Origin: Neisseria cinerea
Lineage (GTDB): Bacteria > Pseudomonadota > Gammaproteobacteria > Burkholderiales > Neisseriaceae
Length of the DNA stretch: 64,000 bases
Reading direction: 5' to 3'
Assembly: GCF_900475315.1 (NCBI RefSeq)
Contig: NZ_LS483369.1
Coordinates: 682,001 to 746,000, forward strand
A program made the translations under genes and the position numbers. Shown here in pieces: positions 2,769 to 31,864 of this stretch. The notes beneath the pieces are model-generated. The model worked only from the letters and a program-made list of their open reading frames with translations. It ran no database searches and was not told the DNA's origin. Numbering within the stretch: position 1 is the stretch's first letter; the number at the start of each line of letters is the position of its first letter.

Positions 2769-3632
2769 ATGGAATTAAACGAATTTCTTGACAAAGCCTA
2801 TTCCGTTTTACGGCGTTTGGATGCCGTACTTCCGCCGGAATCCGAACGTACGGATTGGAACGCGTTGGCATTCCGTTGGCAGAGTGCGGGTAAAAAAGGG
2901 GTTTTGGAGCACTTGCCCGCCCCTCATGTTTTCCCCTTGGCAAGGCTGGCGGGAGTCGGCCCGCAGACCAATTTGCTGGTACGCAATACCGAACAATTCA
3001 TTGCCGGCAGACCTGCAAACAACGTATTGATGAGCGGTGCACGAGGAACAGGCAAGTCATCACTCGTCAAAGCATTGCTGCACGAATACGCGGATAAGGG
3101 GTTGCGCCTGATCGAGGTCGATAAAAGCGATTTGGTCAGCCTGCCTTACCTGTTGACGCTTTTAAAAGAGCGTCCGGAAAAGTTTATCGTATTTTGCGAT
3201 GATTTGTCGTTTGAAAGCGGTGATGAAACATATAAGGCATTGAAAACTGCGTTAGACGGTGGTTTGTCGCAGCGTTGCGCCAACGTCTTAGTTTATGCGA
3301 CCTCCAACAGACGGCATCTGATGCCGGAGTACTTGGACGAGAATGCCGGTACGACGGGGATGCGGGGGGAAATCCATCAGAAAGAAGCGGTAGAAGAAAA
3401 AGTATCCCTATCGGACCGTTTCGGGTTGTGGCTCAGTTTTTATCCGTTCGATCAAAACGATTATCTGGCGGCAGTGCAAAATTGGCTGGAAGATTTTGGT
3501 GTGCCATATGATGAAACCGTAAGGATTGCGGCATTGCAGTGGGCGCAGATGAGGGGCAACCGTTCGGGACGTTCTGCCTGGCAGTTTGCATGCGACTGGG
3601 CGGGCAGACTGCCGGAACAACGGGTGCTGTAA
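2769..3632 (+). CDS. DUF815-family AAA-type ATPase
   Basis: 287 residues from the ATG at 2769, which has GAGGCAGG just upstream; an in-frame ATG at 2748 overlaps ribE and lacks a site. The Walker A motif GARGTGKSS is at residues 90-98, a Walker B-like FIVFCDDLSF at 139-148, and a sensor-1-like YATSNRRHL at 177-185. Together these match the DUF815 branch of AAA+ ATPases, whose role is not established. It probably shares a transcript with riboflavin synthase, with no functional link visible. Confidence 0.85.
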   Translation: MELNEFLDKAYSVLRRLDAVLPPESERTDWNALAFRWQSAGKKGVLEHLPAPHVFPLARLAGVGPQTNLLVRNTEQFIAGRPANNVLMSGARGTGKSSLVKALLHEYADKGLRLIEVDKSDLVSLPYLLTLLKERPEKFIVFCDDLSFESGDETYKALKTALDGGLSQRCANVLVYATSNRRHLMPEYLDENAGTTGMRGEIHQKEAVEEKVSLSDRFGLWLSFYPFDQNDYLAAVQNWLEDFGVPYDETVRIAALQWAQMRGNRSGRSAWQFACDWAGRLPEQRVL

Positions 3633-30089: not shown

Positions 30090-30902
30090 ATGACTGTATG
30101 GTTTGTTGCTGCTGTTGCCGTCTTAATCATCGAATTATTGACGGGAACGGTTTATCTTCCTGAAACACCTTTTATCGTTTTCAGGTAGCCTTTATGATGA
30201 CGATTACGCTACCGCGTCGGTTGTTTTTAAAGTGCGGTCAGAAAAGTCAAAGAACCCAATATCACGCCAACCGCATTGGGCACAATCAAAATCCAGTCTT
30301 TTTTGGGTTCTTTACTCCAACCATATAAAACCCAAATCAAACAGGATACTGCCGCAAACAGAGGTTGCCACGGTTGCGCCTTTTCCCCTTCCAAATTAGC
30401 GATAATTTGGGGGATATAGGCGATGAATACAAAAATCCCGATTGCCGCGCCTATGCTTCCGATAAAAGCATTGAATTTTTTCTTGCTTATCATAGATAAG
30501 TATCCTTTCTCAAAAATTTTTATTGTACGGCCTTTAATATAGCGGAGCAATATTGCTATCGAACTGGTTGTCAGCGCAGCTTTGGCGGGTTCGGGCATTA
30601 TCTACGGACTGATCGGCAGCACGCCTGCCGCCGTCTTGACTGCCGCCTTACTTTCCGCGCTGGGTATTTGGTTCGTACACGCCAAAACCGCCGTTAGAAA
30701 AGTTGAAACGGATTCATATCAGGATTTGGATGCCGGACAATATGCCGAAATCCTCCGACACACAGGCGGCAACCGTTACGAAGTTTTTTATCGCGGTACG
30801 CACTGGCAGGCTCAAAATACGGGGCAAGAAGAGCTTGAACCGGGAACTCGCGCCCTAATCGTTCGCAAGGAAGGTAACCTTCTTATTATCACACATCCTT
30901 AA
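30090..30902 (+). pseudogene. nfeD: nfeD interrupted by a foreign insert
   Basis: The 5' piece (30090-30188) reads MTVWFVAAVAVLIIELLTG and on to VYL, then ends at a stop. The 3' piece, in frame from about 30561 to the stop at 30900-30902, reads LVVSAALAGSGIIYG onward with two membrane segments and the C-terminal OB-fold of NfeD (LDAGQYAEILRH to TRALIVRKEGNLLIITHP). Joined directly, the two give a normal NfeD. About 405 bases (near 30158-30563) separate them and carry the SemiSWEET gene in the opposite strand. NfeD normally pairs with the stomatin-like gene that follows. Confidence 0.8.
30227..30493 (-). CDS. SemiSWEET/PQ-loop sugar transporter inserted in nfeD
   Basis: 88 residues from the ATG complement at 30493 (AAAGGATACTTATCT before it). 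Three membrane helices: FIGSIGAAIGIFVFIAYI, WQPLFAAVSCLIWVLYGW and LIVPNAVGVILGSLTFLTAL, with the PQ motif in IAYIPQIIANL at the end of helix 1. This is the minimal SemiSWEET layout, a half-transporter that dimerises to carry small sugars. Its last codons overlap the sequence AAAGTGCGGTCA, the Haemophilus uptake signal, so it was probably acquired from Pasteurellaceae. Confidence 0.85.
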   Translation of the reverse strand: MISKKKFNAFIGSIGAAIGIFVFIAYIPQIIANLEGEKAQPWQPLFAAVSCLIWVLYGWSKEPKKDWILIVPNAVGVILGSLTFLTAL

Positions 30903-30916
30903 CATCAGGAGAAATC

Positions 30917-31864
30917 ATGGAATTTTTCATTATATTACTGGTAGCCGTCGTTGTTTTCGGATTTAAATCCTTTGTCGTTATTCCCCAACAGGAAGTCCAC
31001 GTTGTCGAAAGGCTCGGACGTTTCCATCGCGCCTTGACTGCCGGCCTCAATATCCTCATTCCCTTTATCGACCGCGTGGCCTACCGTCATTCGCTGAAAG
31101 AAATTCCCTTGGATGTCCCCAGCCAGGTCTGCATCACGCGCGACAATACGCAGCTGACTGTTGACGGTATCATCTATTTTCAAGTAACCGATCCCAAACT
31201 TGCCTCATACGGTTCGAGCAACTACATCATGGCAATTACCCAGCTTGCCCAAACGACGCTGCGTTCCGTTATCGGGCGTATGGAGTTGGACAAAACGTTT
31301 GAAGAACGCGACGAAATCAACAGTACCGTCGTCTCCGCCCTCGATGAAGCCGCCGGAGCTTGGGGTGTGAAAGTCCTCCGTTACGAAATCAAGGATTTGG
31401 TTCCGCCGCAAGAAATCCTTCGCTCAATGCAGGCGCAAATTACCGCCGAACGCGAAAAACGCGCCCGTATCGCTGAATCCGAAGGCCGTAAAATCGAACA
31501 AATCAACCTTGCCAGCGGTCAGCGCGAAGCCGAAATCCAACAATCCGAAGGCGAGGCTCAGGCTGCGGTCAATGCGTCAAATGCCGAGAAAATTGCCCGC
31601 ATCAACCGCGCCAAAGGTGAAGCGGAATCCTTGCGCCTTGTTGCCGAAGCCAATGCCGAAGCCATCCGTCAAATAGCCGCCGCCCTTCAAACACAAGGCG
31701 GCGCGGATGCGGTCAATCTGAAGATTGCGGAACAATACGTCGCCGCGTTCAACAATCTTGCCAAAGAAAGCAATACGCTGATTATGCCTGCCAATGTTGC
31801 CGACATTGGTAGCCTGATTTCGGCTGGGATGAAAATCCTCGACAAGGGTAAAACTTCCCAATAA
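30917..31864 (+). CDS. qmcA: Stomatin/prohibitin-like (SPFH/Band 7) membrane protein
   Basis: 315 residues. N-terminal membrane segment (FFIILLVAVVVFGFKSFVVI) followed by the SPFH domain (VVERLGRFHRALTAGLNILIPFIDR, ITRDNTQLTVDGIIYFQVTDP). Then a charged helical region rich in A, E and R (about 165-245) that makes oligomers, and a C-terminal hydrophobic stretch. Bacterial relatives (QmcA) pair with NfeD and organise membrane microdomains or proteases. Here the upstream nfeD is broken, so it may act alone. Confidence 0.9.
   Translation: MEFFIILLVAVVVFGFKSFVVIPQQEVHVVERLGRFHRALTAGLNILIPFIDRVAYRHSLKEIPLDVPSQVCITRDNTQLTVDGIIYFQVTDPKLASYGSSNYIMAITQLAQTTLRSVIGRMELDKTFEERDEINSTVVSALDEAAGAWGVKVLRYEIKDLVPPQEILRSMQAQITAEREKRARIAESEGRKIEQINLASGQREAEIQQSEGEAQAAVNASNAEKIARINRAKGEAESLRLVAEANAEAIRQIAAALQTQGGADAVNLKIAEQYVAAFNNLAKESNTLIMPANVADIGSLISAGMKILDKGKTSQ

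Follow-up and report, generated by a model that had tools for sequence, protein, structure and literature searches.

How did a small transporter gene come to lie inside nfeD of this Neisseria cinerea genome, and from which kind of bacterium did it come? The window, i.e. the whole stretch of 64,000 nucleotides that was analysed, holds nfeD in two pieces, followed by the gene of a stomatin-like protein:

30090..30158, + strand: 5' remnant of nfeD, 23 codons, 100% identical to residues 1-23 of the NfeD of a close relative (G003)
30159..30563, - strand: 405-bp insert that splits nfeD and forms a self-contained SemiSWEET unit; five relatives match the flanks without the insert; GC 41%
30564..30902, + strand: 3' remnant of nfeD, an open frame with the C-terminal domain kept; Pfam NfeD 6.1e-8
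30917..31864, + strand: stomatin-like (SPFH, Band_7) gene; Pfam Band_7 6.5e-37, Band_7_C 1.8e-25

Comparison with five close relatives shows that nfeD is interrupted after codon 23: the match runs from the nfeD start at 30090 up to 30158 and is taken up again from 30564. All five (G003, G007, G052, G019 and G043; loci L019-L023) have an empty site in which GGTTTATCTT(T/C)TGGTTGTCAGC is uninterrupted. An earlier note on this DNA had stated that joining both pieces gives a normal NfeD, and the five relatives, which run through at the same base, bear this out; the start of the insert has to be moved from 30158, as given there, to 30159. In comparison with L021 the junction is ambiguous by one base (C at both 30159 and 30564). 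The junction comparison revealed no target duplication at the insert ends, and no terminal inverted repeat pair was found in the insert. A SemiSWEET-type gene has come in and interrupts nfeD. In the genome collections, which contain one genome per species, NfeD was matched in 39 of the 46 genomes of the genus, as one open frame in 38 of them and split in two in the window genome alone; the remaining seven gave no NfeD match. The insert is AT-rich (GC 41% versus 50% for the window), and equally AT-rich stretches of 405 bp make up 5.5% of those in the window. In the right nfeD flank the first 600 columns are 87.5-93% identical to the five relatives (means among the relatives 93.5-94.8%) and in the left flank columns 1000-1200 are 90.5-92% identical (mean among the relatives 94.5%). 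Mosaic import of these flanks was considered, and the lower identity is what an outgroup would give, so it was not counted as evidence. As for the view that nfeD is knocked out, the interruption stands and no NfeD other than the two fragments was found in the genome at E<=1e-5; the function of NfeD was presumably lost with it. The stomatin-like SPFH gene is the usual partner of nfeD, and its protein would thereby be left without that partner.

The insert carries the following elements of a gene:

30227..30493, - strand: SemiSWEET/PQ-loop transporter gene, 88 aa; Pfam MtN3_slv 1.6e-8
30503..30508, - strand: ribosome-binding-like AAAGGA, 9 nt before the ATG
30522..30550, - strand: weak promoter-like TTGCTC-17 nt-TACAAT, 8 of 12 consensus bases, by reading

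The minus-strand frame is intact from the ATG at 30493 to the stop at 30227 and passes the gathering score of Pfam MtN3_slv (PF03083; 34.9 versus 23.7 bits), in agreement with the claim of an 88-residue PQ-loop gene on the other strand with a ribosome site of its own. The gene is presumably expressed; a promoter scan at a threshold of 9/12 and a terminator scan found neither element in the insert. The protein shares with the SemiSWEET family (PF03083) its 88 aa, three predicted helices, the PQ motif and the aligned Trp/Asn, and lies far under the cut-off of NCBIfam SemiSWEET_2 (19.6 versus 80 bits), i.e. it is a member of the family and not of that subfamily. In the structural model, which is of moderate confidence (mean pLDDT 78.8), the helices span residues 4-35, 42-60 and 67-87. 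A fold search with this model gave no match at E<=0.001, with a pyruvate carrier in first place, SWEET 5cth at rank 4 and 4rng at rank 9, and sequence profiles matched the solved structures 5xpd (5.6e-8), 9kax (0.0023) and 4qnc (0.0062). In alignment A1 Gln29, Trp54 and Asn73 are present in 11 of 11 rows and Pro28 in 10 of 11; Trp54 and Asn73 have aligned counterparts, likewise Trp and Asn, in the solved chain 4qnc. According to PMC5972207, the pocket residues of LbSemiSWEET include Trp and Asn, and the substrates are glucose for LbSemiSWEET and sucrose for BjSemiSWEET. By analogy with other SemiSWEETs the product is probably a passive sugar carrier that works as a dimer. Comparison with the three nearest Neisseria copies gives a dN of 0.072-0.080 and a dS of 0.58-0.63, which indicates that the gene is under purifying selection. 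The genome also contains a second SemiSWEET, 44% identical, between carA- and carB-like frames (L015; frames named by eye). Second copies of this type (44-46% identical) follow a carA-like frame both here and in G011 (L015, L014), and the one of G006 (L012; L013 falls in the same set) lies between aceF- and lpdA-like frames. Three SemiSWEETs have been reported in N. elongata, and horizontal transfer of these genes in general has been proposed, in PMC5742349.

The closest proteins, 85-86% identical, are found at other loci of three Neisseria genomes (G006, G011 and G013), and in the tree the window protein groups with these three (96/91), inside a clade of oral bacteria. Genome contigs were also scanned with the protein and genera counted from titles: among the best 80 of 112 relatives there were 58 Streptococcus, 7 Veillonella and 15 others, namely two each of Saccharibacteria, Oribacterium, Gemella and Actinomyces and one each of Neisseria, Granulicatella, Parvimonas, Trueperella, Megasphaera, an unnamed Lachnospiraceae and Carnobacterium, the last on a 3.4-kb contig that could be contamination. 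Two Leptotrichia plasmids carry a SemiSWEET of the clade as well. Throughout N. elongata-type Neisseria, oral Bacillota, Saccharibacteria, Actinomycetota and the Leptotrichia plasmids these are single genes in unrelated contexts with 74-86% protein identity, and the window copy differs from them by its own upstream region and by a hairpin of DUS uptake words of the eik dialect.

At the DNA level 87 regions were compared, and pairs were listed among 28 of them (the 70 best, together with those of the window). Among the pairs listed, Saccharibacteria, Actinomycetota and Bacillota share units of 0.35-0.4 kb with 87-96% DNA identity in unrelated contexts, and the cross-phylum matches mostly begin 38-78 bp ahead of the ATG and end 45-99 bp beyond the stop; exceptions within this list are the Granulicatella pairs, which stop at the gene end, and an S. 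cristatus/Actinomyces pair, which starts at -12. The listed Saccharibacteria unit is 95.9% identical to that of S. australis (387 bp), 95.7% to Actinomyces (348 bp), 94.2% to Parvimonas (377 bp) and 87.5% to S. cristatus (359 bp). At Actinomyces locus L063 the GC content is 35% in the SemiSWEET gene and 58% and 52% in its flanks, and the gene has a nitrate-reductase gamma gene as neighbour, which argues against mere contamination. According to a 2018 survey, SemiSWEETs are seldom transferred between phyla (PMC5972207); for the oral clade, the cross-phylum identity of 87-96% contradicts this. Between ATG-17 and STOP+4 the window copy is 83.9-84.6% identical to its N. elongata-type counterparts, and over part of the gene it is 74-80% identical to those of oral Bacillota and others. 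It is therefore an older branch and not a recent copy of the Streptococcus type, and it seems to be the Neisseria line of a gene that circulates within the oral community. When plasmid DNA was searched with the insert, Leptotrichia wadei matched at 74% over 46% of the query, and two N. gonorrhoeae records aligned with the nfeD flank only; the 3' flank of the insert alone had no match in plasmid DNA, and the junction 21-mer was not found in viral contigs. The record NZ_CP119140.1 of N. gonorrhoeae, filed as a plasmid, is chromosome-sized (2.17 Mb).

The end of the insert that lies behind the gene contains two elements, the first of which had been overlooked by the earlier note:

30180..30191, - strand: exact AG-eikDUS AGGCTACCTGAA, an exact 12-mer with 8 copies in the whole genome
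30159..30191, - strand: paired-DUS hairpin whose second arm breaks off after TTTCAGG, where the insert ends (inverted repeat I5)

The AG-eikDUS 12-mer is given in PMC12061091, and PMC3630211 describes the eik dialect as abundant in Eikenella corrodens and N. shayeganii. It is expected 1.9e-5 times per insert, or about 8 times as often if all eight dialects are counted as tries. The uptake words of the window are mainly of the AT dialect (47 ATGCCGTCTGAA and 7 AGGCCGTCTGAA among 63 ten-mers); at 63 in 64 kb a whole genome would hold about 1,800, and 943 DUS are given for one N. cinerea strain in PMC3630211. In the 45 genomes searched the eikDUS occurs 2,836 times in G064 and 1,282 times in G065, versus 8 in the window genome, four of which fall within one kilobase; G070, G074, G077 and G097 have 86-171 copies, and G006, G013 and G011 have 82, 38 and 9. 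G064 and G065 were taken, by inference, as an eik-dialect genus. A paired-eikDUS hairpin of G064 is 94% identical over 34 bp to the last 34 bp of the insert, loop included, and the DUS pairs of G064 and G065 continue with TAGCCT where the insert stops after TTTCAGG; the fold of the hairpin region has a z of -1.99 over 77 nt. An exact eikDUS in a paired-DUS hairpin at the insert end points to a Neisseriaceae donor with an eik-type dialect. A SemiSWEET at E<=1e-20 was found in neither of the two eik-dialect genomes (G064, G065), and Eikenella is not needed as the last donor because G006 and G013 themselves carry 82 and 38 eikDUS. G074 has a near-identical hairpin loop beside a sim-type word, so other genera with non-AT dialects may also have been the donor. 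The whole insert, searched in 83 Neisseriaceae genomes, matched by its gene in three others, and neither the upstream 55 bp nor the full 3' flank had a match in other genomes of this set. PMC3630211 describes a similar case, in which mucDUS around folP mark the import of foreign-dialect DNA in an N. subflava strain; that import is a 7-kb region, and the one in the window is a single 405-bp insert that disrupts a gene. The same paper reports that in meningococcus eikDUS-tagged plasmid DNA gave no transformants, so uptake by a recipient with AT-DUS would need another tag or an intermediate. A foreign-dialect DUS can indicate the donor where the tree of an 88-residue gene cannot.

Another part of the genome provides a precedent for the entry of DNA of this dialect. 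The region at 937-938 kb (L132:1100-2100) contains four eikDUS together with copper-chaperone-like and MerR-like frames (named by eye), and is 98% identical to G006 and G011 over 1,001 bp. With G053 and G055 the identity is likewise 98%, over about 893 bp, and with G064 it is 92%, over 933 bp; the five nearest relatives match with 75-77% over about 228 bp plus a piece of 35 bp. From this pattern we conclude that eik-dialect DNA has entered the window lineage, and on its sequence the stretch is an import common to several Neisseria. Two of its carriers, G006 and G011, also have the closest SemiSWEETs; G013 has a close SemiSWEET and lacks the copper stretch (75% over 206 bp).

We consider it fairly probable that the unit came from a Neisseriaceae with the eik dialect, entered a Neisseria with AT-DUS and was joined into nfeD without a target duplication. 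The donor would be either a species akin to Eikenella or an oral Neisseria which had earlier acquired such DNA, and the DNA transferred would consist of an upstream region, the gene and half of a DUS-pair hairpin. With at most one base of overlap and no terminal repeats, the joining may have been an illegitimate, end-joining event during transformation, which would have severed nfeD after codon 23 and left the transporter gene intact. The incoming gene is a member of a SemiSWEET clade whose units of about 0.35-0.4 kb have spread from phylum to phylum in the mouth. It is known that the minimal mobile elements of Neisseria are exchanged by transformation without a mobility gene, between conserved genes. 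The unit in the window also lacks a mobility gene and lies instead inside a gene.

Other sources and other ways of arrival have to be weighed against this, above all the gain from Pasteurellaceae proposed by the earlier note, which was built on this element:

30229..30238, + strand: Haemophilus-type uptake word AAAGTGCGGT, spanning the last codons and the stop of the SemiSWEET gene

A direct arrival from Haemophilus or other Pasteurellaceae on their uptake signal is very improbable. Its case is that the 9-mer core AAGTGCGGT is present at 30230-30238 and the 12-mer AAAGTGCGGTCA at 30229-30240, with expectations of 0.002 and 3.6e-5 per insert (first-order model), and that four of the eight genome copies of AAAGTGCGGT fall within 55 kb around the insert (675-730 kb: window 12733, 30229 and 47622, genome 675427), spaced by 17-19 kb. 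Genome-wide, however, the eight copies compare with nine of the reversed control, which puts the word at background. Its nine core bases are the codons Thr-Ala-Leu, which the codon usage of nine window genes spells as this word about once in 94 (1.07%). In 26 of the 27 oral-clade relatives compared, the same place encodes Thr-Ser-Leu, Thr-Ala-Leu or, in Veillonella, Thr-Ser-Phe, with 2-5 of the 9 bases different from the word; Granulicatella ends differently. The AT-rich extended signal AAAGTGCGGTNRWWWW, which was said to be present, is matched in this genome only at 675421 and 1725289 and not at the insert, so that of this claim the core and AAAGTGCGGTCA hold. A class-wide protein search (369 genomes, evenly drawn) found the gene in its own genome alone at E<=1e-20 and contained one recognisable Pasteurellaceae, G350, known by its 768 matches to AAAGTGCGGTNRWWWW. 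In the 140 genomes of its family, homologues at E<=1e-8 occur in 17, the best is 40% identical, and seven that were placed in the tree form a clade of their own (98/99), which together with the background level of the word tells against a gain from there. The note had also named closest homologues within Neisseria in the same context as a sign against its view; the closest are indeed in Neisseria, in contexts that differ. A passage through Pasteurellaceae strains outside the 140 genomes may have occurred, and a neighbour from the Neisseria family is the more likely donor. A lone uptake word of 9-10 bases within a coding sequence is weak evidence of a Haemophilus donor.

Another possibility is that an insertion sequence or a site-specific recombinase put the unit in place, for example with the unit as passenger of an IS1595-type element, and some surroundings of other copies speak for this. 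In three Neisseria genomes (L002, L003, L004) the gene is directly followed by ACAAGGGGCT, which we take to resemble IS1016 ends, and in L003 an IS1595-type transposase gene lies upstream. In a prophage-type viral contig (L129:4300-5894) the unit occupies the place of the remainder of a portal gene (profile positions 2-135 of 321) and adjoins a ClpP-type gene, with a similar end, ACAAGGGGCTGT, after it. The copies in L068 and L070 have transposase genes nearby, and S. sanguinis and S. cristatus copies adjoin a tRNA-Thr gene. These neighbours vary between hosts, however, and the window insert has neither terminal inverted repeats nor a target duplication nor, by eye, a GGGGCT end, so that we hold this mechanism to be quite unlikely. 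An unlikely reading, though less so, is that nfeD is not fully knocked out and that its 3' remnant gives a working C-terminal domain from an internal start, possibly the TTG at 30582. Its 112 codons are free of stops and dN/dS is 0.13-0.25 against the five relatives (0.19-0.32 among themselves), but residues 1-23, a hydrophobic segment, are severed and an in-frame stop lies upstream at 30540-30542. The undecayed state of the remnant fits a still useful fragment, and a recent event accounts for it equally well. An assembly error or contamination is scarcely credible: no point in its support was found, the genome is a single 1.83-Mb contig with a completeness of 100%, both flanks are continuous with those of the relatives, and this version of the gene is in no other genome searched.

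Returning to the transfer from an eik-dialect Neisseriaceae, it may be one instance of something larger. A bare unit of upstream region, SemiSWEET and hairpin, about 0.35-0.4 kb long, could be a community-wide mobile gene of the human mouth, an idea that we offer tentatively and regard as rather doubtful. Such a unit would cross from one phylum to another although it encodes no mobility function, land in or beside unrelated genes (nfeD, lepA, portal) and pick up uptake words from its hosts, and its ends would thus keep a record of its travels. The evidence is at DNA level for three phyla and at protein level for Neisseria and the Leptotrichia plasmids as well. Where contexts were viewed, at 16 loci plus L129 and the Neisseria copies, broken genes were seen in three cases, nfeD, the portal gene and lepA. 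In Saccharibacteria (L049:1848-5413) the break in lepA falls between profile positions 275 and 304, where an intervening stretch of about 1.9 kb contains the SemiSWEET, a MazG-like gene and one further frame, and a second locus (L050) is 96% identical over 3.3 kb; the lepA start of L049 is also in another frame, and the SemiSWEET unit is therefore not the sole lesion of this gene. If the idea holds, the unit may be selfish, or it may serve as a sugar valve of broad use to bacteria living in shared saliva. In titles and abstracts on SemiSWEET in Neisseria, Streptococcus and Saccharibacteria, on oral horizontal transfer and on Neisseria nfeD/stomatin, neither the insertion nor the cross-phylum oral unit is reported.

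The tRNA-Thr neighbourhood in S. sanguinis and S. cristatus (L051, L052, L055, near 3265-3390) has a counterpart in other hosts. Actinomyces and Trueperella copies (L063, L065, L066) keep 11 bp (TGCCGATTGCA) of the tRNA-Thr end after the unit, and this sequence trace hints at an origin of these copies in Streptococcus.
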